Shown: piece after piece, positions 199 through 58,829 of the stretch | Layout of the letters: each line of letters starts with the position of its first letter | Numbering within the stretch: position 1 is the stretch's first letter | From: Micractinium sp. NFX-FRZ | Taxonomy: Eukaryota > Chlorophyta > Trebouxiophyceae > Chlorellales > Chlorellaceae | Length of the DNA stretch: 64,000 nucleotides | Reading direction: 5' to 3' | Assembly (NCBI GenBank): GCA_029339195.1 | Contig: JAPTJF010000312.1 | Coordinates: 1 to 64,000, forward strand | Translations under genes and position numbers: made by a program | The notes under the pieces: generated by a model | Databases searched by the model: none | What the model saw: the letters and a program-made list of their open reading frames with translations, nothing else | Told to the model about the DNA's origin: nothing

Positions 199-3148
199 GA
201 CATCCTGACCGACCTGCGCCTGGTGCCCGCCTCGCTGGACCCAGAGGGCCTGGCGGAGGCGCCACCCCCGTGGAAGCGCCGGCAGCCGCAGGCGGGGGCG
301 CAGGAGGGGCCCAGCGTGGAGGCGGCCGTGGTGGGTGGGGCGGGGCGGCATTGCTTGGGGCGTGTTGGGAGGTGTTGTTGGAGTTTCTGGACAGTCAGCC
401 GGAGGCGGAGGGGCCCAGGAGCGGCCTAGTGGAGAGGCGGCTGTGGTGGTGGGGGCCGCAGGGCAGGGCTTGGGGCCCCGCCTGTCCGCCAAGTATGTCA
501 TGCGTGCGCATGTCAATGGCAGGCAGCTGCATGCGTAAGCACGTTGTGCAGGCCCAGCTTGAGCGCCTGCAAGCACTAAGCACTCCATGCGTCTGATGCA
601 CAGTCTCATGTGTGGCGCCCTGAGCCCCCGGCCCCCACCCCGCCCCCCTCCTCCTCCTGCAGGCCGCGCTGCAGAGCAAGCGGATGGAGCTTCGTGCCAC
701 CGTGGCAGAGGGTCTGCAGGCCCGCCTGCAGCAGCGCTTTGGCGACAAGGCAGCCGGGGCGACCGCGGCGCTCGCGGCAGCCGCCGCGGCGGCGCGTGCG
801 GCCAGCGGCGGCAGCGATGCCGTGGCACAGCAGCGGCAGCAGCAGCAGCAGCAGCAGCAGGTGGTTGCAGGCGGGGATGAGGAGCCTGTGTGGGTTCACA
901 GCGGCTTCCTGGATGCCTACGCCTCGGTGCGCCCCGTTGTGCTGCGCCTGCTGGACACGGCGCTGGCGGGTGAGGCGCGGGGGGGGGGGGGAGAGGGGAG
1001 TGTTTTGGGGGAAAGGGGAGGGGCATGGGGCGTGGTAGGGTGACAGCTAGGGTGCTGGCGGGTGGCCGCCGCTCCCACCCAATCATCACACTCCCTCCTC
1101 CCTGTGAACGCCCCTGCTGCTCCTCATATCCTACTGTACCAAACGCCCGATTGGCAGGCGAGACGGAGCCGTGGACGCTGTACGTGACCGGGCACTCGCT
1201 GGGCGCCGCGCTGTCCACGCTGTGCGCCTACGACTGCGCGCGCCGCGCCTGGCGCACCACCGCCCACCCGCCCCGCCTGGTGCACTACAACTACGGCTCG
1301 CCGCGCGTGGGCAACCGGGCCTTTGCGCAGGAGGTCAGCCTGAGTGGGGTTGGAGGCAAATGGGATGTGTGGAGTCAAAGGGGCATGTGTGCGTGACAGG
1401 CGTGGGCAGTACCTGTTTGGTCCGTTTGTAACTGCAGATGGGACTGCCGCGAGTGCAAATCAGGGCGTTCGTCGGGGGAGGTGTGAGCAAGAGCAGGGCC
1501 TGGTGCAGATTACCCACCGCTGTATTCCCCCCCTCCAACCCCACCCGCCCCTATCCCAGCGCCACGTTCCCCTCCCTCTCCTTCCTCCCCCCCCCCGCTC
1601 CACCACTCCCCCTGCCTCAGTTTGATGCTCTGGTGCCCAACGCCTGGCGCGTGGCCAACAGCAACGACGCAGTCACCCTGGTGCCGCGCATGCTGGGTGG
1701 GCCCCTGAACACTCGTAACAGCAGCCCCGCCCCTCTTGGCTTGGCACCCTGCTTGGTCTCTGACCGTCCCCCGTTGCGTGCTGTTGCCGTGCTGAGTCCG
1801 GCTGCCTGCCTTGCCTGCATGTGCCTGCCCGCTCGCGCTGCCTGCCTGCCTTGCCTGCATGTGCCAAGCGGAACGGGACGCGAATGATGCCTGGGCTGCG
1901 CTGACGTCTACATGGTGCCACTGACTACACGACGCTTCCTTGCCGCAAACTGTTCCCTGCAGGCTGCCTGCCTGGCAGCATCCAACCTGCTGCACTGCAC
2001 TGTGCGGCTGTAGCTTGAGAACACAGCAATTGATGCAATTCTCTTCGCTTTCCTTTTGTTGCAGGCTACTGCCACATTGGTCACAAGGCGGAGCTGGGGC
2101 CGGAGGGGCAGCTGGACCTGACACGTGAGCAGGGGGTGCGGAGGGGGAGGGGGCGCAGTGTGGCATGTGCTGCGCTGCGCTGTGCTGCAGTGCTGCTCCA
2201 TGCCCCCCTGCTCCTGGTCCCGTGCCCCCTTGACCTGTGCTGTGTCGGTGTCCTGGCCTGCTTCTTTACCTGGCCTAGCCACCGCCCAATCCGACAACCC
2301 AATACACACCGCTCCTCGCCACCGTGCGTCCTGCAGGCCACAGCAGCCGTGGGCTGGGAGAGGGCGCCGACGCTGGAGCTGTAGCCCTGGCCGCAGCCGT
2401 CAACCTGCCAGCCCTGGCGGAGACGATGCTGGCGGCGCAGGAGGCAGCAGGGGAGGCGGCAGCGCAGGGCAGCGGCGGCAGCAGCAGCACGGACGACGCC
2501 CTTGCCGCCAGCAAGCCGGCGCTGCTGTCGGCGGCCGCGGCAGTGGCGTCTGCGGCGGTGGCGCTCAGGGCGGGGCAGGCGGCGGCGGATGGGGAGGTGG
2601 AGGAGGGGCACAGCGCTGACGATGTGAGGTCGCTGCTTGAGGAGGAGATGCAGGCGATGCAGCGGCTGCTGGACGGCAGGTGCGCCTGGGGGGAGGGGGC
2701 GGGTGCCAGAGGGGATGATGCAGTGTGGGGCAGGGCGAGACGGGCGGGGGGCGGGGGAGCACGGCGGGGCGAGATGGGGGCAGAGACGTGCAGCAGGTCT
2801 GTCCCTGCACGATGAACGCATGGCTTCCATCCTCCAGCCAGCACAGTGCCTGCCCCCCACCCTGCCCCACCCCTCCCTGCAGTGCACACCAAATGGGCGA
2901 GCCCATGCGGCCTCCATGCTCTGCCCTCTGCTGCTGCTGCTGCTGCCCAACTTGCATGACGCATACACCTGCCCACAGAACACCCATAATTGCAGGTTTC
3001 TTCATATCATGCCAACTCATGCGCCCTGCCCCCCTGTGCCCTGCCTCTGCGCCCCCCCTGCAGCGCGCTGACTGAGCACCTGGAGCCTCTGTACCTCGAG
3101 AACCTGAAGGCAGCTATCATGAAGCTGGGGGAAGCTGACCAGAAGTGA
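199..3148 (+). CDS. Class-3 lipase (triacylglycerol lipase-like), 5' partial
   Basis: Alpha/beta-hydrolase of the lipase class 3 family, expected to hydrolyse acyl esters of neutral or membrane lipids. Exons: 199-330, 663-969, 1158-1333, 1621-1696, 2065-2124, 2337-2679, 3064-3148; all phases agree and give 392 residues to the TGA. The exon at 1158 carries the nucleophile elbow GHSLG followed by the family motif YNYGSPRVGN. The exon at 1621 has VANSNDAVTLVPRML, where the Asp fits the acid of the triad; GYCHIG follows at 2065. LTEHLEPLYLENL in the last exon offers the catalytic His. An Ala/Ser-rich insert (2337-2620) lies between the last two motifs. The N-terminus, with any targeting signal, is missing: it lies upstream of 199, where poly-C interrupts. 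Its first intron holds a decayed copy of the preceding exon end. Family assignment is firm; substrate is unknown. Confidence 0.9.
394..454 (+). repeat. Exon ghost: decayed copy of lipase exon end plus donor
   Basis: Bases 394-454, inside the intron after exon 199-330, align by eye with 281-340, which is the end of that exon and its GTGGGT donor. Identity is roughly 80% with small gaps; the block CAGGAG-GGCC-AG...GAGGCGGC-GTGGTGG is shared. The copy would encode SGEAAVV against SVEAAVV in the exon. Confidence 0.75.
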
Positions 3149-4033
3149 GGAGGTTGAAGAATGGGTGGGCAGCTGCGATGAATCTGGAGGAAGCTGGTGG
3201 GGGGAGCCAGAGGCACTGCAAGCATGACATACCCCTCCCCCGCTTCGCCCGCCCCACGATGCACATTGTCATGCCACCCCCCACGCACCTGTTGCCTCAA
3301 GTGCCCTGTGCTATATTATTGAGTGTTACTGGACGAGATCTGATTGAGTTGGGCTGGACCTCTTATCATGCTTTGTCAACCCTGCAATGCCCCGCACTGG
3401 CTAGTAGGGAGGGTGGACAAGTGGGCCGGGCGGACAGGGCGCTGGCGGTAGCCTGCTGCACCCGCTGTGCATGCGGCATGCTGCCCACCTACTTGAGCCG
3501 CAGGGGAGGGCGGTCATGGCAGGGGTGTTGGTGCATCCGAGGGATGTGTGACAGGCGGCGGGGCCTGCCTGCCTGCCTGCTATGCACAACACCATCGCCT
3601 GAGAATAGCAGTGGTTGTTGCCGCCATTGTGGTGCGCCACCATGTGGTGCCTGGTTTGAGTGTTCTGTTCGGGGTCAACACAGGTCAATGGGGTTTTGAA
3701 CATTGCAAATTGCCCTCAAAGTCACTGCTCGACGAAAGACATGAACGAGTGAATTGCAAGGTCGGCCACACATGCAGGCACATGGTGAGTTATCAGCCAG
3801 GACCAGCAGGACCATCATGCTGACGTCAGCAGACAGCCCCTGGACTCCCCTGGCATTCGCGGCCCCCTTCCTCGGTCCAAGAATGGAAGACTGCGCACAG
3901 TTGAGCTTCCCTCTCGAGCTCTGCCAGTGGTTCCATCGCCCCCGTACCACTCGTCTGCTGGTGGCTCAGCGACCAGCACCAGCCTCCAGCTGTAGCTCAT
4001 AGGCACCATGAGATAATTCCTCTTGTCATCGCG
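3149..4033. other. Intergenic: lipase 3' UTR and upstream region of next gene
   Basis: About 0.9 kb without a convincing exon on either strand. It should hold the lipase 3' UTR and the promoter of the membrane protein gene. I see no TGTAA signal close behind the lipase stop. Confidence 0.6.
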
Positions 4034-4040
4034 TATATAG
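4034..4040 (+). promoter_or_regulatory. TATA box of the membrane protein gene
   Basis: TATATAG at 4034-4040, 57 bases before the chosen ATG at 4097. The expected transcription start near 4065 leaves a short leader and supports this ATG over more upstream non-ATG extensions of the frame. Confidence 0.55.
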
Positions 4041-4096
4041 GCACGGGAGGGACCCTGACACCCGAAGGCACAGAATTGGCCCTTGCCCTGGCGGCG

Positions 4097-6416: not shown

Positions 6417-8965
6417 TCACGCCCAGCGCGCCCCCAGGCTGGCCATCTTTGCGTACGCCTCGGCAAAGTGGGCGAAGAAGAGGGGCTGGTCGTCGGCGTA
6501 GCGCTGGATGAGGGGGCGCAGCACTGGGCTGTCCGGCAGCACATGGTCGGTGGGGATGCCTGCACCGGGTATGGTAGGGTGGGTGGAGGGTGTGGAGGGG
6601 TAGGAGTAGGTTGGGTGAGGGGTTTGGGAGAGTGTGGGTGAGAGAAGAGCAGGTGGTCTGGTGTGCAGGGGCGTGGCACTTGGCTGGCTGTGGGGCAGCA
6701 CGTGGTTGGTGGCAAAGCACCCCGTGCATCCCAAGCATCCCACAAGCACCCCACCACCTCCGGCCTGCACGCACGCACCCGCCCACCCACCCGTGTGCTG
6801 CGCCATCTCGTTGCTCTTGTCCACCCAGGGGGCGGCCAGCAGCGTCTTGAAGTAAGTGTTGTCAAAGGTCACGGGGTCGCCGTACCCCTTGCTGCCCAGC
6901 TGCGAAGAGAGGAAGCAGGCGAGGCAGGGTGGAGGGTGGGGGGTGGAGGGTCAGAGGTTGACCAAAATGGTCGCAACCCCTCGCCTCCCAGTTGCAACAC
7001 GACAATAAAAGAGAAGGAGCAAGGGGCATTGCCACGAGGCAGGGCAGTGGCCATCAAACCCAGCTGCGCATCCCCTGCCTGCCTTCACACGAGCCATGGT
7101 GCACCCGGTTCCCAAGCCACCCATTGCAGCCGCACAATGCACGCCGCGTCATGCCTCCCTCTCACACACGCATTCAAACATGCCTCTCCCCCCGCTCCCC
7201 CACCCGCCCACCCACGCACCGTGTGCGACCCCGACAGCACCAGGAACTCCCGCTCATTGAGCCCCTTGGCAGCAAAGTTGGCAATCTGCTGCTCCGCGCT
7301 GGCGTCTAGGGCGGGCATGCGGCCGTCGGGGTCGGGGCCCGCAGCGTCGCGCCGCCCCACCGGCACCTGGGGCACAGAGCAGGGGGTGGGAGCGGGTGGG
7401 AAGGGAATGCGAGGAGGGGCAGAGCCAGAGACGCCGCGCGAGCCAGTGCGCAGCAGTCTTCAGGCCGCAACCGCAGGCAGCAGCCCACCCGCCGTGCCCG
7501 TGCGCAGATGTGCAGGCACTTGTGCCAAGGCTGCCCCAAACCGCAGCCCGGGCGTCACACCTGTATCGTGGGCCCGCCGGTGATGCGCACTGCATACGCC
7601 CCCGCCAGCGCAATCAGGTCGGCCTTGGACACCGCCCCCTCCGCTGCCGTCCCTCGCAGCTTCTTGTCTGCCGCCTCTATCACATTCCTGCAAGGCAAGA
7701 AGAACAAAGTTGGAGCAGGTACTGTTGAAGAAGCAGTACATCTGCAGCAGGAAAGCAGCAGTTGAAGGTGCAAGGGAGCTCCTTGCCTCAAGCCCCAGCC
7801 ACGTGCCTGCAAAGCAAACAGTGGGGGGGCGCCTCTAAGAGGTGAACCAGCAGCAGGTTGGCGGGTGAGCGAGCGAACAGCTGCTCCTCCCTCCGCCGCA
7901 ACCACGTCCTTATGCTGATGCAAGAGGGGCGCAAGCAGGGTGTGTGGACGAGTACATTGTACAGCAGCCGAATGCTCAGGCGTGCAGAAAGGAGGGGCAC
8001 GCTTCGGCGGTCGAGAGGGCGGCGGAGCAAGCGCAGGGTCTCATTCAAGCAGCGTACCAGCCCCGGCTTCAGCGTACCAGCCCCGGCTTCAGCGATGTAC
8101 CAGCGCTAATCCAACCCCGCAAAGAGGGCAGCACGGATCGGCCCCAATGCTGCGCCAACCGCCACCGCCTGCTGGAACAGAAGGCAGGTGCTAGTACAGC
8201 ACAAGGCAGGGCGCCGTGCCGCTGAATCCATACCCACCCTCCTCGCGCGACTCACCAGCCCCGCTTGAGCCCAAAGTTGTCGGGCCGGTCCAGCTCGTAC
8301 TGGATGGAGGCGTTCACACCCCCATCCCCGGCAGCTGCGTCATAGGAGCCGGCGTCGTGGAACACCAGGCGCACGATGACCGGGGCCTGGGGGGAGCGGG
8401 TGGCGGGAGGGTGGGGGAGGGAAGGGGGACTGCGAGTGAGGGCGAGGTGGTAAGAGCAGGGCTGACCGCGCCTCGAATGGTGTTCACATGACTTGCTGCT
8501 TGCCTGCATGCGACACCTGCCCAAATGCGCCCACACCGGACCCTGCCGCCTCACCTTCGCCTTGGGCAGCACAGCAGCAAAGGCGGCATCCACAGCGGCC
8601 GCCTCCTCAGGGGTGAGGTAGCGGGGCGCACCGGGTGCCGCCGCCGCCGCTGGCCGCACGCCCGGCGTGCTTGCCAACAAAAGCTGCAGCAGCGGCGCGC
8701 TAACGGCGGCTCGCAGCACCTCCCGCCGGCTGGGCGGGAGCGCTCCAGCGCTGGGGCCTGCAGCACGGAAGGCAAGGGGCGGTGAGAGTAATGGGAGCAG
8801 CCGGGGAGTGCCGAGGAAAGCTCGATGACTGCACCAAGTACATCGAATTGCATCCGGGCCCTTACTTTGCGAAGCGGTGCACAAAACAGCGCGCGCTGCG
8901 GAGCGTGGCGCCCTGGGCGCGCATCGCGGTGCTTGGGCTGCCTGTACACACGCCATGGCTCGCAT
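6417..8965 (-). CDS. Class I haem peroxidase, APX-like, predicted thylakoid-lumen targeted
   Basis: Peroxide-reducing class I plant peroxidase closest in motif pattern to the APX6-like ascorbate peroxidases. Exons in transcript order: 8965-8866, 8757-8555, 8386-8256, 7687-7561, 7366-7220, 6899-6791, 6559-6417; 319 residues. The distal pocket is RLVFHDAGSYD: Arg and His are kept, but the usual Trp of RLAWHDAG is Phe. The proximal His is in LSGSHTLGSKG, and the Trp that normally follows it in APX and cytochrome c peroxidase is absent (GYGDPVTFDNTYF). GGVNASIQYELDRPDNFGLK and a RYADDQPLFFAHFAEAY helix complete the fold. The N-terminus looks bipartite: a basic Ala-rich transit peptide, then SRREVL plus a hydrophobic stretch ending in AAAA before the mature part, a twin-arginine lumen signal. 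It shares a 232-base promoter region with the kinesin gene. Ascorbate use is inferred from the family, not shown. Confidence 0.9.
8051..8090. repeat. 20-bp tandem repeat in a peroxidase intron
   Basis: Two perfect 20-base units at 8051-8070 and 8071-8090, followed by a partial third. On the minus strand the unit resembles the end of the upstream exon with its donor (8253-8273), so it may be a duplicated exon-end ghost. Confidence 0.7.
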
Positions 8966-9197: not shown

Positions 9198-12100
9198 ATG
9201 GCGCGGCAGCAGGACTCGGAACTGCGGCGCGTCGCCAGCAGCAGCAGGGGCCCGTCAGCGCCGTCGTCGCCCCGCAGGGCGGTGCCCTCGGTGGGCACAC
9301 CCCGCAAGGTGAGCCACAAATGTTGGCCAGATGCATCCCTGCACAGTGCAGCATCGGCAGCAAGAGTTGTCCGCGCTCCCTGGCTGCTCCGTCGATGTCA
9401 CCTCACTCTTCTGCCTTGCAGGCGCGCGCAGCAGCGGCCACCCCCGGCGGCGGTGGCGGCACCCCCTCGGCGACCCCCGGCGGCCGCACGCCCTCGGTGC
9501 GCACGCGCAGCATCCTGGCAGGCGGCGGCGGCACGCGCCCCCGCATCAGCGCCCGCATCCCGGGTGGGATCCACAGCGAGCCCTGCTCTCCGCGCGGCGC
9601 CGCCAGCCTGGCAGACAGCTGCGAAGGCGGGCTGGCTTCCCTGGAGGCGCTGCTGCCAGCGGGGCTGGCGCTGCACGACGACGCATGCAGCAGCGGCGGT
9701 GGTGCAGCACCCACCAACGGGGTAGACACGATCCACGTGTTTGTGCGTGTGCGGCCGCTGAGCACGCGGGAGCGTGGGGCCGGCGGCGCCGCCGCCCGCC
9801 CCTGCGTGGCCGTGGCCCAGGAGCGGGCAGTGGTGCTGTCTGACCTGGCACGCCAGGGGCAGGGGCAGGAGCCCTTTGTGGCCACCTTTGACCGCGTGTT
9901 TGGTCCAGAGGCGGACCAGGAGGATGTGTTCACTGCGGTGGGGCTGCAGGCGGTGGACAACTGCATGGCGGGTGAGCTCATACTCAGGCTAGGGTGCAGG
10001 GAGGGATTGGGATCTGGCTGCAGGTTGACTGCTCGCCGGCACATATGCATGTGGTTGCAGGCATGCACACAGAGCAGCTGCTGGGCTCTCCGTGGGCTGG
10101 ACTGCACATCACATGCACGCCTCCCCGTGCCCGCCATGGCAGCTTCCCCCCTCCTGATGACGTGAACCATGCCCCCCTGCCTTCCACTTCCCTGCCGCAG
10201 GGTTCAACTCCTCCGTCTTTGTTTATGTGAGTCTTTTATGTGAGGGTGTCGAGGTGCAGGGGATGCGGGCTTTGCCCTGCACCGGACCGTGCACATGCAA
10301 GTGCGTTTGACTGAATGCCAAGCCGCCAATCCCCTCTCCCATCACGTCTCTCCCTCCCTTCTTGTCGACCATCAGGGGCAAACCGGGGCAGGGAAGACGC
10401 ACACCATAACCGGAGACGTGCAGCGCGGCGATGACGGATCTCTGGCTGAACAGGTGCGACCGTGTGCTGCCGGCATGCTGGTGCTGCCTCCCTATATCTG
10501 CTGTGCCTGCTGTGTTGGGTAAGCTGCTTGCCACGTGGCAGCGCGCAGGCTGCTGGTTAGCACAGCAGGCATACCTCGCCAGCGTAGCTCCCGCTGCTCC
10601 CTCCCAAAGACCCACCTCGCCCCTGCCAGTGCAGTGCGGCCTCACGCTGCGCGTCTTCCACCGCCTGTTTGAGCGCATTGCTGAGGAGGAGCATGACAAC
10701 GTGCGCTACACCGTCAAGTGCTGGTGCGCTGGGCAGGGTGGCGAGGGGGAACGGGTGGGGAAAGCGGGAGCCGCTCCTGATCTGTGCGCTTCATTCACCA
10801 GTGGCGAAGATGCTGTCAAGGTGGCTTCCGCTTCCCATGCCTCATATGCGTCTCCCTTGCCTGCCACTCTTCGCCCGTGGCACCCCTGAGAGGGAGGCCT
10901 CCCTCCCTCATGCCTGAGCATGTTTGCTCCCCTGCTTCTGCTCTGTGCAGCTATGCTGAGATCTACAATGAGGACATCACTGACCTGCTGGCTCCCGGGG
11001 GCGGCGGGCTGGCCATCCGCGATGGCGACGCCCACCGCGGCATCTGGGTGGAGGGGCTGTCGGAGCAGGTGGCGGTCAACGGTGAGCGCTGGGGGCAGTG
11101 CGGGGCATGGAGGGCAGTGCAGGCAGGCAGGGCAGTGCTGGATGGTGCAATGGCGGCTCTCAAGGTGTGGGTGAAGAGAGGCGGGGCAGTGCAGTCAGTT
11201 GGCTATTGTGGGGGCCCTTGCTCACCTTGCCAAGTTAACAGCTTGCAGAGTTAACAGCCTGGACAAGCCCTGCGACAGTGTCTCATGCCGTCCGCATTCC
11301 CAGCCAACGTGCATTGTGCAACCACAAAGTGATGCTACCAATTCAGAAGGGATCCGCCAACCTCACGCTTGCTCTGTTCATTGTTCTTGCCCATCCCTGT
11401 GCCTGCAGCTGATGACGTGATGCGCATCATCCAGAAGGGGTCCGCCAACCGGCACACCGCTGCCACACGCATGAATGAGCGCTCCTCACGCTCACACAGG
11501 TGCAACTGGCTGCCGAACATCTGTCACTTCCCACTTGGCTTAGCTGTGGTGTGGTGCGACCTGCGTGGGGCAGAGCTGCACTCGCCAGGTCTCTCTGACT
11601 TGCTCCCCCTCTTCCTCACCCCCGTGTTCTGCCCCCGTCCTCCCCGCAGCGTGTTCACCGCAATAGTCGAGGCCCACGAGCAGCAGCCTGACTCTGGTGT
11701 CACCAACGTTCGCTTCGCCAAGCTCAACCTGATCGACCTGGCGGGTGAGCGGGCGTGGTGGGGTGGTGGTGGAGGTGGTGGATGGGTTGGCCGGTGTGGC
11801 GGGCAGTGAGCGTGTGGGTAAGGACTGGGCAGTGGCGAGCAGCCGACCGCGACCGAAGAGCATCAACCAACAACCCTTTCCTTTGCACACTGACATCTGG
11901 CGCACTGACATGGCTGCCCTTGTGCTGTGGCAGGCAGCGAGCGTGTGGGCAAGAGCGGTGCCACCGGCGACCAGCTGACCGAGGCGAAGAGCATCAACAA
12001 GAGCCTGACCACGCTGGGGCGGGTGGTGACGGCGCTGACGGAGCGCCACCCGCACGTGCCCTACCGCGACAGCCGGCTCACATTCTTGCTCAAGGAGTCC

Positions 12101-15100
12101 CTGGGTGGGTGCCTGGGGTGAGGGTGAAGGGCAGGGAGTCTGGGGCAGGTTTTGAGACAGGGGCAGGAGGGGCCTGCGCCAGGGCAGCGGGGCAGGCGCG
12201 CTTTCGGCTGACGGGTCAGGGGCGTGGTAGGCTCGTGCAGGGCACGGGGAGAGCAGCGGGCACCTGCAGGGGCTGCCACCCAATAGGATGGCGGGCAGTG
12301 CGGCAGAGCTGGCTGTTCAGAGCTGCAGACTTGCCTGCGCCTCCACCGCCTCCCTGCCCTGGCCACATTTGCTCGCTCCACTGCTGCAGGCGGCAACTCC
12401 AAGACCTCGCTGATTGCCTGCATCTCCCCCAGCGAGGAGAGCGCGCAGGAGACTTTCAGCACGCTGGTGTTTGCCGCGGGGGCCAAGAAGATCCGCAACC
12501 GGGTGAGCCGGGGCGAGGCTGGGGGGTGGGGGAGCAGGGCCACGTCGGCATGTGTTGTGGAGGCCTGCTGCTGCGGCAGCAGGAGCACAGAATCCATGCA
12601 ACACTAATGCACGCGCGCCAGATGAGGTTGTGCCCCAGGGCATGGTGGACAGCAAAAAAACTCCGTCCCTGTTGCCACGTGTGCTCGGGCTCTTGTCAGC
12701 CCGTATCAACCGCCCTCCCGTCTGCCCTCTCCCCCGCAGGCCGTGGTCAACCAGGACACCGTTGGCAGCATGAAGGCGCTGCAGCTGGAGAATGCGCGGC
12801 TGCAGCGGGAGCTGGCCAAGAGGGAGGTGCGCAGCAGTGCGGTGCACAGCACCTGCAGGGTGGGGGTGATGACAGGGAGAGGCAGGGGTGGAATTGAGCG
12901 AGGAGAATCTTGCGCTGCAGCGGAGCTGGCATTTACTTTGTTGGGAACGCTTGCAGGCGGCAAGCAGGGGAGGTACTAGCTGGGCAGCGGCACGCTGCCC
13001 CGATGCTGTGGGACTTCAGCGCTGGGCCTGCTGGCCAGGGCCAGGGCCAGGCCAGGCTGAGATGTGGTGATGATGATGGTGGCCCACGCTGTGCACCGGC
13101 ACCTGCCCCGGGTCACCCTCCCCCTGCAGGAGGCGTTGCTGGCGGACCGGCGGCAGGAGCTGGCGGCAGCGCAGGCGGCTGCGGCGGCCGCAGAGGAGCG
13201 CATGGGTGCTGCGGAGGAGCGGCAGCAGCAGCTGGAGGTGGCGCTCAATGAGAACCACTCGGCGCTGCAGCAGCGCAACGCTGAGCTGGCGCTGGTGATG
13301 AAGGTGCTGGGGGGTGGGGTGGGGATGTGGGGAGTGGGGAGCCCTCACTGACAGAGGGAGGGAGGGGCAGGGTCGCATGCTGGGCTGGGCATCCCTGCCA
13401 CAACATCAGGCTGCAGGTGGGCGGTCATAAACGTGTGCTCTGCCAATGGCCTGCATACAACAATTTCTTGTCACCTGCCTGCCTGCGTTGCCTGAACACC
13501 CCATCCCGCTCCATCCGCGCCCCGCGTGCAGGAGGTGGAGGACACCAAGGCGACCTGCCAGCTGCTGCAGAAGGACCGGGAGCAGCTGATTGACCACAAC
13601 GCGGCGCTGACAGAACGGGTGGGCCTGGGGGGCAGCAGGTGCAACAGCAAAAGGGATCGGGGAGGCGCCAGGGGAAACTTGCAGCAGCAGCAGCAGCAGC
13701 AGCAGGATTTGGGCGGGTGGGTGGCACGTGCGGCGGGTGGGAACGTCCTCTGGGACGCTTGCCTGCATGCCTGCCTGCCTGCCTGCTTGCCTGGTGGTAC
13801 CGGCCTGCTCCCACCCCCCTGCCTGCCTGCCTGCCGCTGCAGGTAGACCAGCTCACCTCTCAGCTGGAGCGCAGCGAGCACGCCTTGCGACGGCTGCAGC
13901 AGGAGGCAGTGGCGGCGGGGGAGGTGAGGGGCACGAGAGCATCTTGCCCTGCACAAGTGGCAGTGGTCCAGCTGGCCTGTGTGCTCTCATCACTCTCCCC
14001 TCGTCGTTTACAAGCATGATTGCCTGTCTGCCTTGCTTACCTCTGCCTGCTGCCCCCTTTCTTCCCGACGGATGCAGCGCTGCGAGGCGGCGGCGGCGGG
14101 GCAGCGCGCTGCCGAGGAGGCAACACGCACCCTGCAGCACGAGCACGAGTGTGTGTCGTCTGACCTGGCACGCGTTAGTGCTGAGCTGGCACAGGCCAAG
14201 ACGGTGAGTGAACCGAGTCGTGGCTGTTGCAGTGGGGTTCCAATTCCTGGGCAGATCGCGGGTGCATGCGCTGCCTTACTGGTATGTGGTAGGTGCCCGC
14301 TGCTGTGAGTGGTCGTGTCATCATGTTTTGTCGCACCCAATGGACGATCTCCGCTCGCATGCCGCCTCCTGGCTGCTGCCCGCAGTGCCTGGATGAGGAG
14401 GAGCGGGCTAAGAAGTCGTTGAAGCGGGAGGTGGAGCAGGTGGGTGCGGCTGCAGGGGTCTGTGGTGCTGGAGAGCCCCTGCAGCAGGACAAGAGGAATC
14501 AGCAGGACTGTCGCCGCAGCCTGTGGAAGCAAGCACCCACACACGCTGCTGCTCTGTTGCTCGCCGCTCCCTGCCTCTTGTGCCCGCCCTCTGGCCCCGT
14601 GAATGACACTATTCCACCGCACCCCACCCCCACTGCCCCCCTCTGCACTCCAATGCAGCTGCTGGCCGACCTGCGCAAGCAGCAGCGGCAGGCAGCGGAC
14701 AGCCAGGAGCTTGCGGCGGCGCGGGAGGACCGGCTGCGGCAGGACGTGGCGCAGCTCAGCGAGGTGGCTGGGGCGGAGGGGCAGCGTGCGTGCTGGGTGG
14801 CAGCCTGGGCATATTCGCTGGGCAGCTGGCATGCCTCGTGAAGGCAGCGCCTCTACCTTGGCTTGCCTGTACCTTGGCCTGTACCCTGCCTGTACCTTGG
14901 CCTGTACCTCGGCCTGCCCTGCCTGCAGCTGGCGTCCTCCGTGCAGGATGCTGGCCCCTCTCAACCCCCACCCCCACCCACATGCACACGCCTCCAAAGT
15001 CTCGACCTCTGCTTGATCAAGTCAACTGACGGTCCCAAGTCTCGACCTCTGCTTGATCAAGTCAAACTTGCTGTTGCTCCCTGCAGCTGGCCTCCTCCCG

Positions 15101-15825: not shown

Positions 15826-15956
15826 GGGCGCGAGACGCGCTTCCATTCCGGCCGCGTGGTGCCTCAGCAGACATCAACCCCACACTTGAACAGGCAGATT
15901 GGAGATAGCCACAGCTGCTGCCGCCTGTTGTACATTATCAGTTGCACACTTGCGAA

Positions 15957-22964: not shown

Positions 22965-24921
22965 ATGCGCCGCTCCGCCGCCGTCTCCGCCCTGCTGTTG
23001 GGCTGCCTGCTCTTCGCGGCAACGCGGCCTGCGCAGGCAAGTTTTCCAAGCCGCTGCACGCGGGATGTTGGGTGGGACCGGTCTTCCGAGCACGGCAACA
23101 TGCGGGTCGGGTCGGCAGAATGACAGTTGGGGCTGGCGGTGCCGCTGGCGGTGCCGCCGCCGCAGCCCGCAAGCACACTGCTGGGCTATCGTTGTCTCAA
23201 CGGCTCGTTGACCCCGCTTGCAGGCCAACATCATCGACACCGTTGTGGGTGGCGTCACCAGCGCATGGGACTCGGTCAAAGATGCGGTGACCGGGGTGTA
23301 CCAGTGAGCGGGGCGCTGGGGAGGGGGCGGGTGGGCGGCGCGGCGCGCCAGCTGGCGGGTCGCTGGCCAGGGAGGGCGGTTTGCGGCGGACGCGCACGCG
23401 CACCCGCCGTCTGCAGCCTGCTGCGTGATGCACAGCTGGCAGGGGTACGAGAAGCCTGTGCAAACACAGAGCCACGGGGCTTTCCTGAGTGGGTTCTGCG
23501 CCAGCTGGCGGTTGCCCTACCACCCATGCCTGACCACCGGCCATTGGCCCGCGCCCGTTGCTGCCCGGCTGCTGCAGGTCTGCAGAGTGCAGCGTGGTCA
23601 AGTGGGCGGACGTGAATCTTGAGACGTGCACCGCGCCCTCGGTCAACGGCACGGTGCAGTGCACAGACGAGTGCAAGGCAAACCTGGAGAAGGTGGCGGG
23701 CGCCTCACGCTCCTGCGTAAGTGGCTGTGACAGAGCTAGGGCTGGGTGGGCAATCACAAACAGAGCATAATCAAGAGGCCGGGCAGACGGCACAGACGGG
23801 TGCAAGGCGGTTTTGCACAAGGTGGCAGGCGCATCGCGCTCCTGCTTGCTGAGGGCGGGTGGTGTATGTGTGGGGGTCCCACCTCCTGGTTCGGCGTTGC
23901 ACCTAGCAGCTGCCCTGCCCGCCGCCTGCCTGCCTGCCTGCGCCGGCCGCCTACTGCTGGCGTGGCAGCAAGCTGTGCCCACGGTTGCAGTGCATTTGAG
24001 AGGAGCCCCGCATAGCTGCTTTGGCGGTCGCCGCTGTCTGCACTTCTCCCTTGCCCCACCCTACTCTTATCATCCAACCTGATGCTTTGTTCGGCAAGCG
24101 CTCAAGTCCGGCATCGCCCGCACTTCTTGCCCCAACCTTTCTCCCTCGTGCAGCGATCACCCTCCTCTTCCCTTCCGCAGCTGGACACGCTCGTCTCCAG
24201 CAATGCCGTCCCTCACTCCATCATCCTCATTCAGCACACCCGCCCCACCCCACTTTACTTTCCTGTCCCTCCCGCCTCCTGCCCGCATCTTTGCAGATTG
24301 ACAAGCTCATCTCCAGCATCGCCGGTGCGGGCAACGCCAACACCACGCAGCAGTGGGAGGACCAGGTGGGTGGGTGGGCGGGGGTAGGAGGGGCGGGGGT
24401 GCGTGCTCCAGCTTCTGCGTGGCTCAGGCAGGGTGCTGGGCAGCAGGCCCACACACAAGACTGCAGATGGAGGGCAGCCGCCACAAGTGGTCGCCTGCCA
24501 CTGGCCACGTGGAAGCTGGAGCACGCACCCCCGCCCCTCCTCCCCCCGCCTGTGGCACCGCCTTGCACCACGGCTCTAGTCCACCAGCGCTAATCTCCCC
24601 ACCTTGTGCAACATCCTTATGCGCCACCCACATGCCTGCGCACTGCGCATCTACTCCGCTTCCTGTGTGTTCTCCCGGCTGGCTGCCCTCGCCTACCCCC
24701 CACCCAAGCCGTCATCGCCCTCCCAACCATGCACATCAGCTCACCCACCCGCCCGCCCATCCGCCTGCCTGCCCCGTCTTCACAATCACCTGCAGCTGAC
24801 CGCCTGCGGCATCACCTACACCATGCCCACCAACGGAGCCCTGGGCTCCTACGGCAGCCTGGCCCTCCCACTGCTGGTCGTGGCCGCCTCCATGGCCCTC
24901 ACCCAGCTGCTGAGCCCCTGA
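22965..24921 (+). CDS. Small secreted six-cysteine protein, GPI-like tail (paralogue 1)
   Basis: Family not recognised. Exons: 22965-23036, 23224-23303, 23578-23716, 24297-24365, 24796-24921; 161 residues. Signal peptide MRRSAAVSALLLGCLLFAAT...AQA is split by the first intron. The mature part has six Cys spaced C-x12-C-x10-C-x3-C-x13-C-x26-C, and the amphipathic start IIDTVVGGVTSAWDSVKDAV. The C-terminus is SLALPLLVVAASMALTQLLSP, a hydrophobic tail ending the protein, as in GPI-anchor signals. The first intron has a GC donor (CAG|GCAAGT), the consensus for GC-AG introns. TGTAA at 24985 lies 64 bases after the stop. The paralogue at 29957 keeps all six Cys and the tail but lacks the first and last introns. 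Two introns contain ghosts of neighbouring exons. Function unknown; a surface or periplasmic role is inferred. Confidence 0.85.
23781..23858 (+). repeat. Exon ghost E in six-cysteine gene 1
   Basis: About 75 bases of intron repeat the end of exon 23578-23716 and its surroundings (about 23650-23727). Shared blocks are ACAGACG-GTGCAAGGC, AAGGTGGC-GGCGC-TC-CGCTCCTGC. Identity by eye is over 80%. The copy lacks a GT donor at the equivalent point (CTGCTTGCT). Confidence 0.85.
24173..24212 (+). repeat. Exon ghost F in six-cysteine gene 1
   Basis: TTCCGCAG followed by 30 bases repeats the acceptor and start of exon 24297-24365: CTGGACACGCTCGTCTCCAG against ATTGACAAGCTCATCTCCAG. It retains a plausible acceptor (AG at 24179-24180) but no clear donor. 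Confidence 0.75.
24386..24545. repeat. Inverted repeat (fold-back) inside an intron
   Basis: An arm of about 35 bases at 24386-24421 (GGAGGGGCGGGGGTGCGTGC...) reappears as reverse complement at 24508-24543 (...GCACGCACCCCCGCCCCTCC) with about three mismatches, separated by about 87 bases. It lies wholly in the last intron of six-cysteine gene 1. It could be a MITE remnant or an RNA hairpin. Confidence 0.85.
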
Positions 24922-30957: not shown

Positions 30958-33900
30958 TCACTCGCCCGCCTTGCGTGCACCCCGCCGCCCTTTTCCTGAC
31001 GACACAGTGGGGCCGCCCGCCTTCCTGCCCCGCTTGCCCTTGGGCGCTGCCGCTGCTGCCTGTGCCTCCTCCAGGCTTGCCGCCTCTGCCGCCGCTGCAG
31101 CCGCCGCTTTACTGGCCTCCTCAGCCGCTGCTGTCGCGGCTTCCAGGTCGGCTGCTGACTGCGCGGCCGCTGCAGCCGCCGCCTGCTGCCGCTGCTGTGC
31201 CGCCTCGTACCGCCGCTTCTCCGCCTCCCACTGCACATCGTACTCCTCCTGCTGCCTCTTGTGGTCCGGAAGGCCTGCAGACAGGGGTCGAGGGCACGCG
31301 GGCAGCGGGCCGGGCGGGGTGGGGCGGGTGAGCAGGGCCTAGGGGAGGAGACGAGGGAGGGACTGGACATGGAGGACAGCAGACGAGGGAGGGACTGGAC
31401 ATGGAGGAAAGCAGTGCGTGCCTTCGCGTCGGGCTGCTCAGGCTGACGCCAGGCTGCCTGTCACCCGCCCGTTGCGCCTCCCCTTCACCCCGTCTGATAC
31501 ACCTGGCCTGCCCCACCCTCTCACCCGCACGGATCTCCTCCATCGCCGCCTGCCCCGCCGCAATGACCGCCCCCGCATCCGCCCCCTCAATCGTCTCCTT
31601 CATGCGCGTCATGCACCGCGCCAGCTTGCGGTCGACGTCGCCGTACACGGCCGTGCAGCCCGCAAACTCAAACAGGACACCTGCACCATGTATGAACAGA
31701 GGAGAGGAGCGGGGCAGGGTGCGGCAGGTGGGTTGGGCACTCGGCGGTAGGGCGCAGTGAGCGCGTGAGGATGGTGGGAGCAGGGGCGGCAGAAACCGGT
31801 GCACCGCACGCTGCCCACAGCAGCACGCACCCTTCTGCCAAGGCATACCGCACACCGCTGCGTGTGCCCGGGCCCCCCGCATCCCACCTCCTGCTCCCCA
31901 CTCACGCGGCACCAGGTATGAGATGCGCAGCGTGACCAGCGTGGCGCCGCCGCCCTCGGCCTCCTGGAAGAGCACGGCCGCCACAATGGGCGCCCCATCC
32001 TCTGGCTCCTCCACAATGTACTTGTTCACCTCCGCCTTGGTGCGGCGCAGGGCGACGTACAGCTCAAGCCAGGGGGTCATGGCTGCAGGGAGGGGGCGGG
32101 CGGCAAGGTGTGTGTGCTCAGCGGCCGTGCGCTCAACATCGGTTTCGGGCGACATACAGCTCCAGCCAGGGTATCGTGGCTGCAGGGGGGGCGGCAGGCA
32201 GGCAGGCGGCAAGGGGCCGTGGGCGGATGCAGGCATATGCTCAGTCGCAGGGCGCTCAAACTGATCCACCCCCGCCTTGGTGGTGGGAGCATGCGGGCGA
32301 CGTATGGCTCCAGCCAGGACAGGTCCGGGCCGCTGGCGGCGGGCGGGTGGTGGGACAGGCGAGGCGAGTGCGCAGCGACGGCGGCAGGTGGGCAGGGCAC
32401 CCAGCTTGCCATGCCCCTCCGGCTGGCCCCGCCCTGCCCCCGCTGGGTCCCAGGCGGCCTGCACCAGCGGTACCACAGCCGTGCACTCACTCCAGAACCA
32501 CCAAGGCCACCAAGGCCGTGCCCTCTCCCTACGCCGTACCGAGGCCCTGCAAACACCCCCAGGCAGTACCACGTCCCCCTGCGCTCACCCCAGCGGTACC
32601 AGAGATTGAGGGCGCACAGGTCTTCGTCCCCCTCAGTGAAGCCCACCTCCTCAATCATGCCAAACCAGTGGGGCCAGTTGAGGCGGTCAGCCCACAGGGC
32701 ATACACCTCGCTGCGAGCAGGGCAAGGGAGCAGGGGAGACGGTGCAGCGTGTGAGGAGCCCAGGTTGTGCGGCAGGCAGGGAGTCGTTGCAGAGGGGTGG
32801 GGCGGCGCAGGAGGCGGGGGTGGGGTGCCGCCGGCGTGGGGGCGGCAGGTTGCCTGACGAGTTGATGCACCTGGGGCATCAGCTAGTATCGCGACAGCAA
32901 GCCACAGCCCCACTCACACTCATAAAAGGAAACATTGCCTGCAATCCAAAACAACCACTCACCTGACGTGCCGGCCCAGCTTGGCCGCCAGCCATTTCCA
33001 CATCCATAGCCAGCCATGTGCAGCCACCCACCAAACCCGCTGCATCCATCCACCCACACGGTTGGGATCAGCTGCTCACCTCACGGGGCGGTCCACCTTG
33101 GCCACCAGCTCGTGCTTGAGCGGGACGTCGGTGAAGTCGATGAAGTGGTAGGGGGTGTAGCCTGCAGTGCAGTACAGACAAGCAATACTGTTGTGATGTC
33201 TGGAAGCCAAGGGTAACGAGCATGCCCAGGAGCGGGCAGGAGGTGAGGGAGAGCTGTGCCGGAGTGATGTGGCCTGGGGGGTGGGCAGTGCCCGCGTGGC
33301 CAGGAGTTAGAGAGCAGAGGGCGATGCCCATCACATGGTGGGGTGGCGCAAACACCCTGCAGTTGCCTACCTGACACCGCCGCCGCCGGCCCAACCTGTC
33401 TGCCCACCGAGGCGATCCTGCCGTCCTCCTGCCGCACTCGGTGCACCCGCCTTGCCACCCCCCGTCGGCTCCTGCCCGCACCTGCTTTGCCCTCCAGCCC
33501 ATCGGGCAGCCCGTGCTCAATCACCAAATCCTCGTCATCCAGGAAAGCCACCTCGTTTGCCGCCAGCGGCTCGTCCCCCCACACCTCTGCTGGGAGCTGC
33601 TGCCGCTGCTGCTGCTGCCCCTGCGGGGCCGCCTCGCCCGCCGCCGCAGCGGGTGCCACGAGCGCACGGCGCCGGTGAGGCCGCTGCTGGGGCTGCCTTC
33701 GCGGCAGCGCCCTGAATCAGATGGAGGCCGAGAGGAAGAAAGTGGCCGCAGGTGGGTAATGGCCTGGGACGCAGCAGCAGCAGCACCAGTGGCAAGGCCA
33801 GAGGTGGACTGGCGGCAGCGGCGGTGGCGGTAGCGGTGAGGTGCTCGACCTCATCCTCTTCGCATGCATGTCGCTCGGCAGGGCGCCCGTCTGAGCCATA

Positions 33901-34297: not shown

Positions 34298-34315
34298 AAC
34301 ACGTGTCACGGAGGT

Positions 34316-45433: not shown

Positions 45434-45473
<40 letters not shown>

Positions 45474-54495: not shown

Positions 54496-56419
54496 ATGGA
54501 GATCTTCGGCGATCTAGCCAGGATGAACGTGCGGCAGTTCCTGATGCAGGCCATCAACCTGGGTGCGCCCCCGCCGCCGCCGCTTGGTGCCCGCTGCTTC
54601 GCCAGATGCTGCGCACCCTGCAAGCCCAGGCAATGGGCAACATAAACCAGCCAGACAGCCAGACAGCCTGGTCAGCTGACCAGCAGATGACCTGATGAGC
54701 TGCGCGCTCATATCAATCAGCAATGGCTCATGTTTCTGGCTGCAGGCATGATCATGACGAGCGCTCTCATGATTTGGAAGAGCCTCATCCTGGGCACCGG
54801 CAGCGAGTCGCCGGTGCGCCCCCCTGCCTGCCTCTGCTGTGCTGGCGCTGCCTGCCTATGCCACGCGTCCCTCCCTTGCTGCCACCTCTGTGTGCTGCCC
54901 GCTGCCGCCGCCAGTGCTGTTGCCAATGCCTGCCTGGCAGCAGGCACCGGCACCTGTGGGTGGCAGCCGTGCAGCCAAGAGCGGCATCAGGGCAAAGCAG
55001 CAGCAGCAGGAGCGGCGCCATGGCAACAGCAGCAGGAGCGGCGCCACAGCAACAGCAGCAGGAGTACCTCGTGGCAACATCAACGCCCGAGGCCAACAGC
55101 TCACTTGTTGCTGCAGCTGCTTCTGCCGAACCCGCCTGCCAGCTCATGCAAGTAAGCCTTGCTCGCTATTGGCTTGCCCTGCGCCTCATTTCAGCGCTCC
55201 CGCCTGTGCCTCCGCGCCTGCCTGCAGGTGGTGGTGGTGCTCAGCGGCAGCATGGAGCCTGGCTTCTACCGCGGCGACATCCTGTTCCTCTACCAGCCCA
55301 AGGCCCCGCCGCAGACGGGCGACATCAGTGAGGGGGCGCTAGGGGGGAGCTGGGCGATGTGCATGGCTGTCTGCCCTTGCTCTTGCTGCTGGTCTGCACA
55401 GGCCGGAGACACCAGCGGTGGTGCCAGTGCTGCTGCTGCTGCTGCTGCTGCTGCCCATCTTTAGATGGTCACCACGTGCACACCACAGGCAGAGTGCTTC
55501 CGCAAGTGGCGGGCGGCGGACATGGGGACGTGCTGGTGGAATGTCCGGGGCTGTGCACGCTTGCGTGCCTCCCCTCCCCTCCCTCCCTCCCTTGCAGCCG
55601 CCTTGACCACCAGCAGGCGTGAGTTCCCTGCACTCACCAAGGTTCCAAGCTCACCCACACATCCTGCCCCTCCTTTGCCTCCCTCCCTCTCTACCCGCAG
55701 TCGTGTTCAACACCAACGGGCGTGAGATCCCCATTGTGCACCGCATCATAAAGGTGCACGAGCGCGCCTCCAACTCCAGCAACCTAGACATACTCACAAA
55801 GGTGTGTGTGTTGGGGGGGGGCCCGGGGGACGGCTGGGCAAGGCTGAGCAGAGGGCGGGCTGCAGCGCCCAGGGCAGCCGGGCACCGTTTCCCTGAATGT
55901 AGGACTTGCCATTGCGGCAGCCGCCGGTGTGACCCGCAATCATGACTGACTACCCGCCTGCCTGCCTGCCTGCCGCAGGGCGACAACAACTGGGGCGACG
56001 ACCGCAGCCTGTACCCCAAGGGGCAGCTCTGGCTCAACAGGGGGCACATCATGGGCAAAGTGGTCGGGTGAGCGGGCGTGGGGTGCCATTTGTGGCGGGC
56101 TGGAACAGGGGCAGACCGGCACGAGCTGGGGTGGGGTCAGCCTGAGACACAGGCAGGGCCTATGGAGAAGCCTCTGCCAGCTGCATGGATCGTGACCCTC
56201 TGTGCATCCCTCTCCTGTCACTGTTTCCCGCACCCCCCCTCTCCCGCTGCGGTGAACACAACACAGACGCTCCCAACCCGCTCCACTTCCTCCCCACGCC
56301 CTCGCAGCTTCCTGCCCCACATCGGGCGCGTGACGATCATCATGAATGATTACCCCTGGTTCAAGTACGCACTCATCGCGGCACTGGGCGTGGTGGTGCT
56401 CACGAGTAAGGACGGCTGA
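54496..56419 (+). CDS. SEC11: Signal peptidase complex catalytic subunit SEC11
   Basis: ER membrane serine protease that removes signal peptides. Exons: 54496-54562, 54746-54813, 55228-55327, 55701-55801, 55979-56067, 56308-56419; 178 residues, the normal size for SEC11. A short cytosolic N-terminus (MEIFGDLARMNVRQFLMQAIN) and membrane segment GMIMTSALMIWKSLIL precede box VVVVLSGSMEPGFYRGDILF with catalytic Ser53. VVFNTNGREIPIVHRIIKVH gives His92, and GDNNWGDDRSLYP gives the Asp pair at 119-120. VGFLPHIGRVTIIMNDYP and a final hydrophobic segment ALIAALGVVVL complete the family pattern. TGTAA lies 137 bases after the stop. The third intron contains ghosts of both flanking exon ends. Confidence 0.95.
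55399..55428 (+). repeat. Exon ghost I: copy of SEC11 exon 3 end and donor
   Basis: CAGGCCGGAGACACCAGCGG aligns with CAGACGGGCGACATCAGTGA (55312-55331), the last bases of exon 3 and its donor. Similarity continues a few bases further into GGTGGTGCC / GGGGGCGC. Confidence 0.6.
55590..55645 (+). repeat. Exon ghost J: copy of SEC11 exon 4 start with acceptor
   Basis: CCCTTGCAG followed by about 50 bases resembles the acceptor and start of exon 55701-55801. The best block is CCAGCAGGCGTGAGTTCCC against CCAACGGGCGTGAGATCCCC. It carries substitutions and a deletion and is frame-shifted. Confidence 0.6.
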
Positions 56420-56555
56420 GCCTGGCCCCACAGCAGCAGTGCAGCAGCGGCACCCAGCTTCTGTACCGCCGGCGGCGCTGGCGAGGAGGGGTGCGAAGTT
56501 GCGGCACTGCACACCCCACTGTAGCTCTGTTGACCTGCTGATTATTTCATACTAC

Positions 56556-56560
56556 TGTAA
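56556..56560 (+). terminator. Poly(A) signal TGTAA, SEC11
   Basis: TGTAA in an AT-richer stretch (CATACTACTGTAAACTCG), 137 bases after the SEC11 stop and 174 bases before the ATG of the next gene on the same strand. Confidence 0.7.
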
Positions 56561-56733
56561 ACTCGCAAGCATATCTCGTGTGATCCAGGCACAGCGCTGT
56601 AGGTCTGAATGTCCGGGGCGCGACGGCAGCCCGCCTGCCACGCGAGCGCCCAGGTGGCGGCAGGGGAGTGCGGGAGCTGGATGCGGGCCTGCTGGACCCG
56701 AACGCCATATTGAAATTTGACTGACGCACCACC

Positions 56734-58829
56734 ATGAGCGATACAGAGCCTCAGACGACGCCAGGGGAGCCCCAGGAGGCGGCGGCGCTCAAGCCCAAGG
56801 CGCCGCGACTGCCCAGCTTGTCTTCCAAGAAGCTCGACAAGCTCAGAGCCAAGGACGCCAAGCGCGGAGTCGTCTACATCAGCCGCATCCCGCCGCACTT
56901 GGTGAGGCGCGAGCAGCGGCTGCCGCATGCAGCGCTCCCAGCCCGCCTGCGAGCCCCTAGACCTGAACCCCTGTCTCGCACTTCCGTGGTGCAGAAGCCG
57001 CAGAAGCTGCGACAGATGCTGGAGCAGTATGCAGAGATTGGGCGGCTGTACCTGGCGCCGGAGGGTGCGCCCGCCGGCCGCCGCCGCTGCTGCCTGCTGA
57101 CGCTTTGGGAAGCCTGCTGGCGATCATATAGCTGTATAGCCAACCGTGCCCTAGTATCTGACCGTTCCCGGCTGGCATCGCATATCTACCAGCACGACGC
57201 CTTTGCTCTGCTGCCGCCGCCGCCGCCGCCCGCCTGTCGGCGCACCCCTGACCCGCTCTGCTCTGCTCCCTGCACCCCCTGCCCCGGCCGCAGACCCGCT
57301 GCTGCGCAAGAAGCGCAAGCAGAAGGGTGGCAACAGTGGGAAGAACTTCACGGAGGGGTGGGTGGAGTTTGAGGCCAAGGCCAAAGCAAAGGAGGTGAGG
57401 CGGGGGGTGGGGGTGCCCGTGGGGTGGGGCTTGTGCAGGGGTGCACCGAGGGCAGGAGCACTGCGGGAGGCCGCGGGCTGGCCTCCAGACTCGCCTCCCA
57501 GCCCACCTTCCTGCCCACACCACCATTCTCCCTTCCCTGGAACCTCTACCTGATGATCCCCGCCGCTGCCCACGCCCGCCCTGCCCGCCCCTCTCCCGCT
57601 TCCACCCCCCCGCCTCCCTGCCCCCTGCCAGGTGGTGGCCATGCTGAATGGGCAGCAGATGGGGGGCAAGCGGCGGTCGGCTTACTACTACGACCTCTGG
57701 TGCCTCAAGTACCTGCCCAAGTTCAAGTGGGACCACCTGACAGGTGGGCGGGTGGTGGCAGGCAGGGCAGGCAGGGACAGACAGTGTGGAGAGCGGCCCA
57801 GCCCCTGGGACCAATCAATGCCCGCAGGCTCGCGCTCGCCCCCTGCTCTTCCTCCCCAGCCATTGCGGCCACTGCATGGTCCCCTGCTTCTTCTCGTGTG
57901 CATTCCCCACAGGAGGTCGAGTACCAGAGGGCGGTGGGAAGCGGCGCAGGGCGCCACCCCTCCCATGGCCTCACACACCTCCAACCTGTTGCCTCCCCTC
58001 TCTCCTCTCCCCCACCCCCCAGAGGAGGTCAACTACCAGAAGGCGGTGCGGGAGCAGCGCCTGGCGGCCGAGATCTCGGCGGCCAAGCGGGAGCGCGACT
58101 TTTACCTGGGGTGGGTAGAAGTCCAAACTACCTTCTTCTTTTGAATTCTTCTTTTCTTTTGCCCAGAAGGCAGCAGGCTTGGGAAGAAGGGGACAGGCAG
58201 GGGTTTGTTTCGACTGGCCTACGCCGATGGGGAGAGGCTTGGGGGCAGGCGAGGCAGGGCTGGACGCTCCCCTGTCGTCTGAACACAGCACGTGCCTCCC
58301 CCTGCACGCCACCTGGCTTGCCCCTCCTGTTCCGGTGTTGCTCATTTGGTGTGGCTCACCCAACCCCACCGCACCCCGCCCCACTTACCTCACCCACCAC
58401 TCCCCTCCCACCCCACCGTGTTTACCCCTCTGCAGCCGTGTGGACAAGGCCAAGGCGGTCAGCGCCATTCAGGAGCGCAAACGCAAGCGCAGCGCCGGCG
58501 AGGGCGGCGATGGGCAGCAGCAGGAGCAGCAGCAGCAGCAGCAGCAGGGAGGGCAGGCGCAGGGCCCGCCGTCAGCAGCAGCGGCGGAGCAGAGCGGGGG
58601 TGGCGGCAGCGAGGGCCGGCCGGTGAAGCAGGCCCAGCAGGGGCAGCAGGAAGGGGAGGCGGGCGGCGCAAAAGTGCTGCGGATGTATGGCCAGCGGCGG
58701 GCCAAGGCGGACCCTGTGACCGATGCAGCAGCCCCCAAGCTGTCCTCTGGCCTGCTCAAGCTGATTGCCGGCAAGAAGCCGCAGCAGCAGCGGAGTGGCG
58801 GCGGCGGCGGCGGCGAGGGAGAGGTCTGA
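56734..58829 (+). CDS. ESF2: Pre-rRNA processing factor ESF2 / ABT1
   Basis: Nucleolar RNA-binding factor for small-subunit ribosome assembly. Exons: 56734-56901, 56995-57064, 57294-57394, 57632-57743, 58023-58110, 58436-58829; 310 residues. An RRM-like domain starts at RGVVYISRIPPHLKPQKLRQ (about residue 48), continues with LEQYAEIGRLYLAPEDPLLR, a Lys-rich loop, NFTEGWVEFEAKAKAKEVVA, and ends in MLNGQQMGGKRRSAYYYDLW. LKYLPKFKWDHLTEEVNYQK and AVREQRLAAEISAAKRERDF are the signature C-terminal extension of ESF2/ABT1, followed by VDKAKAVSAIQERKRKR. The remainder is a Gln/Gly/Ala-rich, poorly conserved tail with a Lys-containing end. TGTAA at 59164 is 335 bases after the stop. The intron before exon 5 carries a ghost copy of that exon. 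Confidence 0.93.
57905..57955 (+). repeat. Exon ghost K in the ESF2 gene
   Basis: CCCCACAG followed by about 45 bases repeats the acceptor and start of exon 58023-58110. It would read EVEYQRAVGSG against EVNYQKAVREQ in the true exon. The block GAGGTC-A-TACCAGA-GGCGGTG is shared. Confidence 0.88.

Follow-up and report, generated by a model that had tools for sequence, protein, structure and literature searches.

Several unrelated genes in a 64,000-nucleotide stretch of the Micractinium sp. NFX-FRZ genome (hereafter the window; the opening 64 kb of contig C312) appear to hold, within their introns, decayed copies of the neighbouring exon ends. Given this pattern, we asked whether such "ghosts" are real, whether they extend beyond this locus, and what kind of event could have produced them. 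The sample comprised the window and 25 further stretches of the same genome (66 Mb, 838 contigs, GC about 66%), which after joining of neighbours gave 23 sequences totaling 306,494 bases. A two-strand gene finder trained unsupervised on these 306 kb returned 71 gene starts and 535 introns with a median length of 236 bp, a predicted donor consensus of CAG/GTG and a predicted acceptor consensus of TGCAG/G; all introns and exons counted below are unsupervised predictions from DNA alone. Across the sample, ghost-free introns measuring 150 bp or more are strand-asymmetric, with bases 9-68 being G-rich (skew about +0.24) and the last 70 to 10 bases being C-rich (about -0.41).

Pfam supported seven of ten predicted proteins (kinesin, lipase, RRM, Rab, Fe-hydrogenase, starch synthase and NADH:flavin oxidoreductase), among them the kinesin, the lipase (Lipase_3) and the RRM of ESF2, while the SRPBCC and SEC11 models gave no Pfam match and neither did a scan of ten raw open reading frames. 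The names six-cysteine, SRPBCC, SEC11 and peroxidase are labels taken from an earlier note on this DNA. We judged the predicted models of SEC11, L006 g1 and L017 g1 to contain false exons, and gene model g6 is wrong, being a doubtful 13-exon gene predicted across a repeat of roughly three to four tandem copies (25792-29763, unit about 1,210-1,250 bp). Over 43% of its length, the ESF2 protein shares 93% identity with a protein of Chlorella ohadii, and its identity to Micractinium proteins is 69-75%, in keeping with a Chlorellaceae green alga. SEC11 and ESF2 adjoin on one strand (54496-58829), and the public Chlorella ohadii protein P0037 fuses portions of the two, apparently through an annotation error; the fusion suggests that the gene order is conserved.

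The ghosts located in the window, each with the border that it copies, are as follows.

283..330, + strand: exon end of the lipase (class 3) gene (Pfam Lipase_3), source of the copy at 396..445
396..445, + strand: lipase, donor-side ghost of exon end 283-330; offset 115, score 46, p 0.002
3168..3196, + strand: second lipase-gene intron, strong copy of 3109-3137 (exon end) at offset 59, which falls outside the main class
6686..6712, - strand: peroxidase gene, ghost of exon start 6527-6553; offset 159, score 34, p 0.002 among 12 comparisons for this gene
11329..11362, + strand: kinesin, copy of 11417-11450 (exon start) at offset 88
11795..11867, + strand: kinesin, copy of 11926-11998 (acceptor plus exon start) at offset 131
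12902..12930, + strand: kinesin, copy of 12787-12816 (exon end) at offset 115
23790..23845, + strand: six-cysteine gene, copy of 23661-23716 (exon end with donor and intron start) at offset 129, homology continuing into the intron
24177..24208, + strand: same intron of the six-cysteine gene, copy of 24293-24324 (acceptor plus exon start) at offset 116
32147..32191, - strand: SRPBCC, ghost 1, a copy of 32050-32094 (acceptor plus exon start) at offset 97, score 41, p 0.002
32267..32318, - strand: same SRPBCC intron, ghost 2, again a copy of this exon start; offset 245, two-step array
32958..32992, - strand: SRPBCC, copy of 33075-33109 (exon end plus donor) at offset 117, p 0.017
55608..55628, + strand: SEC11, weak copy of 55711-55731 (exon) at offset 103, score 27, p 0.017, nominal only (hand-corrected model, one of 10 comparisons)
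57905..57953, + strand: ESF2, copy of 58017-58066 (acceptor plus exon start) at offset 112, relatives carrying the exon residues

The kinesin gene thus carries ghosts in three introns, a single intron of the six-cysteine gene holds copies of both its borders, and two SRPBCC introns have ghosts, one of them with two copies. Six of the seven genes named in the earlier note contain clear copies, SEC11 being the weak case, in agreement with its claim that introns hold degenerate copies of adjoining exon borders.

We then compared each intron with its own flanking exon ends by best local alignment with dust masking, taking scores of at least 28 as strong. A strong match was present in 36/535 introns (about 1 in 15), compared to 1.49 expected from the exon ends of other genes and 2.0 expected from non-adjacent exons of the same gene. 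Reverse-complemented exon ends matched in 5/535 introns at this score, a small number that nonetheless somewhat exceeds 1.5. These three controls (other genes, same gene, inverted) and the dust masking rule out chance and low complexity as the source of the set as a whole. The figure of 36 is likely a lower bound, as the lipase copy at 396-445 escaped the count, probably through masking. Border-spanning probes at score 20 gave 58 matches at donors versus 20.9 expected and 64 at acceptors versus 23.5 expected, an excess of about 78 among approximately 1,070 borders. Strong ghosts were found in 8/131 introns of the window contig and in 28/404 introns of the rest of the sample, so the observation replicates outside its place of discovery, as anticipated by the proposal of a process spanning unrelated genes. 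Ghosts occur in 14 of the 23 sampled sequences, and their load differs mildly between genes (p 0.028). We observed no significant relation of ghosts to exon length, splice-site strength or position in the gene; introns with donor-side ghosts were slightly more G-skewed (p 0.047, uncorrected). The phenomenon is confirmed as real and is not confined to the window.

The 38 strong copies divide evenly into 19 on the donor side and 19 on the acceptor side. Their offsets lie at 81-168 bp in 35 copies, and at 81-150 in 33, with the remainder at 59, 245 and 274, the latter two both in introns holding three copies; by inspection, three or more copies are present in SRPBCC, L002 g3.0, L011 g1.7 and L017 g1.13. 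The exon part of the copies measures 15-57 nt at donors (at most 45 in 17/19) and 19-65 nt at acceptors. Helical periodicity of the offsets reached best p values of 0.026 and 0.029 over eight periods and two sets, and we do not claim it. In the NADH:flavin oxidoreductase gene (L006:4285-4450, - strand), an apparent exon-start ghost was taken into the exon by the gene finder, where it repeats GYLIDQFLKD in frame at an offset of 84, perhaps as a young event.

When evaluating which member of each pair is the real exon, we observed that related proteins favour the exon in 20/23 amino-acid differences, the ghost in none and neither in three, the last being undecided because of a falsely predicted exon without counterpart in the relatives. 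This comparison covers two genes (the L017 helicase and ESF2), eight copies and three or four relatives each, and the 23 differences are partly non-independent, as two L017 rows share one ghost. Exon-ghost identity ranges from 0.75 to 1.0, with 22 gaps against 194 mismatches, and mismatch rates at codon positions 1, 2 and 3 are 0.11, 0.148 and 0.198, a spread that argues for ghosts without strong coding constraint. Many copies retain a spare splice site within a few bases, with GT kept in 12/19 donor ghosts and AG in 14/19 acceptor ghosts, as would be expected if ghosts served as alternative exons, alternative splice sites or conserved decoys. Such a function appears very improbable, however, since use of the ghost donor would break the frame or reach a stop in 17/19 cases, the offsets show no preference for multiples of three (10/12/9 by remainder), and the differences also fall outside third codon positions. 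Nor do the copies show the open frame and coding constraint of an alternative or duplicated exon.

An assembly artefact, in which diverged haplotypes or gap filling placed a second copy of the junction inside the intron, would fit an offset close to short-read length, and the contig opens with a run of 76 C (1-76) that is probably itself an assembly or sequencing artefact of the contig end. Against this stand the non-synonymous and frame-breaking differences of the ghosts, the relatives' preference for the exon in 20 of 23 differences, the identity range and the occurrence of ghosts in most sampled sequences, and we regard the artefact as scarcely plausible.

In our view the ghosts probably derive from small tandem duplications across an exon-intron junction, each ghost being the inner of the two copies; the duplicated unit would measure mostly 80-150 bp, around 110 bp, and the event itself is inferred. 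In the proposed sequence, a unit of 15-65 nt of exon plus the adjoining intron end would be duplicated, most likely through repair of staggered breaks or nearby nicks across the junction. The outer copy would presumably keep splicing and leave the protein unchanged, while the inner copy, an exon piece often with a spare splice site, would join the intron, lengthen it by one unit and then decay, with repeated events building arrays. A duplication that took in too little intron would leave two splice sites too near each other and be lost, whereas one with enough would carry a complete outer module and could survive; such selection, combined with a mutation spectrum falling with length, could yield both the 80-150 bp range and the short exon parts. 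By our own reasoning, donor exon parts (17/19 at most 45 nt) are shorter than breakpoints evenly spread over a 110-bp unit would give, a point against this account.

To measure what each event added, we compared 31 introns with a single ghost at an offset of 75-175 (mean 112, median 106, sd 21) with 499 introns lacking a strong ghost. Median length was 335 in the former and 232 in the latter; subtracting the offset brought the single-ghost introns to 233 versus 232 (p 0.78), while subtracting the copied piece alone left 308 and did not fit (p 4e-4). Each event thus seems to have added the copy plus a spacer, in keeping with the suggestion that introns lengthen through border duplication. The 60 bp beyond the ghost showed a strand skew of 0.30 (n=35), the same as real borders (0.30), compared to 0.06 at the equivalent place in other introns longer than 280 bp (n=306; p 2e-5). 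Together, the length step and the skew beyond the ghost point to duplication of the whole junction module, and both speak against a model in which just the exon piece was copied into an intron already present. Copies are also predominantly direct (36 of 535 introns, versus 5 with inverted ones), and the local tandem duplication of exon-intron borders proposed earlier is supported by these direct repeats along with the length step and the skew. The same proposal had offered border duplication as a route by which introns arise, a reading that the data do not support: it predicts an offset equal to intron length, and the two are more than 10 nt apart in 37/38 copies; the 38th (L017 g1.1, offset 104, length 96) we judged to be a gene-model error.

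The spacers also provide evidence against tandem duplication. A strict intron self-match was passed by 4/33 ghost introns, compared to a fraction of 0.41-0.50 predicted if all parts decay alike, and in simulation the intron parts would need to decay 3-4 times faster to fit. Homology of the intron part was also lacking for high-identity ghosts (L020 g0.10, L008 g0.0 and L006 g1.13). An insertion with a long flanking duplication, in which about 60-80 bp of unrelated DNA fills a break across the junction and roughly 40 bp of junction sequence ends up duplicated on either side of it, would lengthen the intron by one offset just as tandem duplication does, except that the spacer would be new. Consistent with this, 29/38 spacers, high-identity ghosts included, fail to outscore all mismatched partners when compared with the other unit, and the two spacers tested each occur once in the 66-Mb genome by a search that passes over very common words. 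However, 9/38 spacers outscore all 18 mismatched partners where about 2 are expected, although three of the nine (L002 g3.0, L011 g1.7 and L019 g1.2) hold a further copy or exon sequence that inflates the score. A new spacer would moreover have to serve at once as an intron end, and the spacers have the composition of one, being G-rich after donors and C-rich before acceptors. We therefore view the insertion as unlikely. Mosaic spacers were rejected as well, with matches to the rest of the own intron in 3 direct cases (0.1 expected) and 0 inverted ones (0.3 expected).

Direct repeats flanking a spacer are likewise what introner-like mobile elements would leave if they inserted at junctions and duplicated their target sites, and introners are known in some algae (PMC9860276). 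Comparison of 18 donor-side and 17 acceptor-side spacers nevertheless revealed no common element and no excess over control pieces, the exon parts of the repeats are variable and 15-65 nt long as opposed to the 3-9 bp given in the available text of PMC9860276, and the two tested spacers are single-copy. This explanation is hardly credible.

We also asked whether junctions are preferred sites for tandem duplication. With border probes at offsets of 80-140 and score 28, matches were found at 17/518 and 19/529 borders (36/1,047), compared to 2/1,854 for control probes in intron interiors, 1/839 in intergenic DNA and 1/521 in exon interiors; general local repetitiveness is rejected on these counts, with the caveat that junction duplications are more visible. 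The raw contrast between junction and intron interior is 32-fold, which is overstated because at a junction one of the copies is conserved exon. Simulations matched to the observed decay leave a contrast of about 3-fold (P 0.01-0.03), and none is left if introns decay still faster.

Banded self-alignment at score 28 found interior matches in 3/343 introns lacking a strong ghost (offsets 72, 76 and 141), in 4/33 ghost introns and at 41/1,070 borders. Simulated uniform duplications predict 28-50 interior matches rather than the 3 seen if all parts decay alike, falling to 12.5-23.5, 8.4-15.4, 5.8-10 and 4.4-7.6 when introns decay 2, 3, 4 and 6 times faster. Ghost-to-ghost comparison in three arrays, with segments chosen by eye, gave identical sites at 62/69 exon-derived and 117/150 intron-derived positions, which suggests that intron parts decay about twice as fast as exon parts.

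If small tandem duplications instead fell anywhere, and those at junctions merely stayed visible through their conserved exon reference, the account of ghosts as tandem duplications would hold unchanged. Uniform breakpoints with four- to sixfold intron decay expect 4.4-5.8 interior matches versus 3 (P 0.17-0.36), in line with such an absence of preference. The raw border, interior and intergenic counts speak against it, however, as do the two simulation settings that reproduce the 4/33 rate of intron-part homology, which expect 8.4 and 10 matches (P 0.033 and 0.01), and a decay factor of 2 fits far worse (P 0.0015 to 1.5e-7). We hold the absence of any preference to be a serious possibility, somewhat short of an even chance. 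A junction preference for duplication is likely; the more specific reading, that junctions are hot spots for duplicating a module of about 20-60 nt of exon and 60-80 nt of intron that forms a self-sufficient splice site, we advance tentatively and would not bet on at even stakes. Junctions might be favoured, for example, by being nucleosome-poor, R-loop-prone or polymerase pause sites. If the hot-spot reading is true, introns would lengthen in steps of about 110 bp, each step duplicating one of their own ends, and spare splice sites would remain in their interior.

Intron interiors are themselves dominated by short-unit tandem duplications. Young examples inside predicted introns lie at 31349-31414 (32-bp unit, 97% matches) and 42703-42781 (29-bp unit, 92%), and a predicted intron of the large multi-exon gene g11 contains an 18-bp minisatellite of about nine copies (51032-51197), followed by other short tandem repeats.

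Intron lengthening is usually ascribed to transposons and small insertions. Junction duplication would add to these a countable process of intron growth with a definite step size, and the spare splice sites left in introns may feed alternative splicing. Ghosts can also mislead gene finders, as they did the present one, and RNA aligners. The process further bears on whether splice junctions are mutational hot spots.

A literature search that covered few subscription journals returned no report of dense, regular junction copies in introns. The earlier statement that no named mechanism predicts this density goes too far, since small tandem duplications arising from break repair (PMC8355091) and a border-crossing case in potato (PMC4974935) are on record in the accessible portions of those sources; we found neither the density nor the regularity described. 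In the first, small tandem duplications form at breaks with 3' overhangs through CST and Pol alpha-primase, a plausible mutational source of short direct duplications; the system there used 43-base overhangs from paired nicks in mouse stem cells, and the accessible portion makes no mention of splice junctions. Repair-mediated duplication can also capture nearby DNA, splice sites included and in some cases with filler sequence (PMC2671141), and so resembles the algal ghosts in copying neighbouring splice sites; the excerpt of that source concerns vertebrate insertions of at least 50 bp with donors up to 5 kb away and describes no fixed offset. Introners, as presented in the partial text of PMC9860276, likewise add DNA to genes and can splice via their target duplications, but they form element families, whereas no family was found in the alga.

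The AGGT model (Rogers; Hellsten et al.; via PMC3443670 and PMC4974935) attributes intron gain to tandem duplication of an AGGT-containing exon segment and, so far as the accessible sections of these sources describe it, shares with the algal ghosts both a local tandem duplication and splicing that leaves the protein unchanged. It predicts a new intron whose length equals the offset (PMC3443670), which is not the case for 37/38 algal copies. The potato RdRp gene offers another parallel: according to the available part of PMC4974935, a tandem duplication across an intron-exon border, carrying a putative branch site, polypyrimidine tract, 3' splice site and exon start, is reported to have created a new intron. 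Both systems are tandem and border-crossing, but the potato case is a single event with a new intron, whereas the alga holds dozens in 306 kb, at donors too, with the inner copy apparently absorbed by the old intron.
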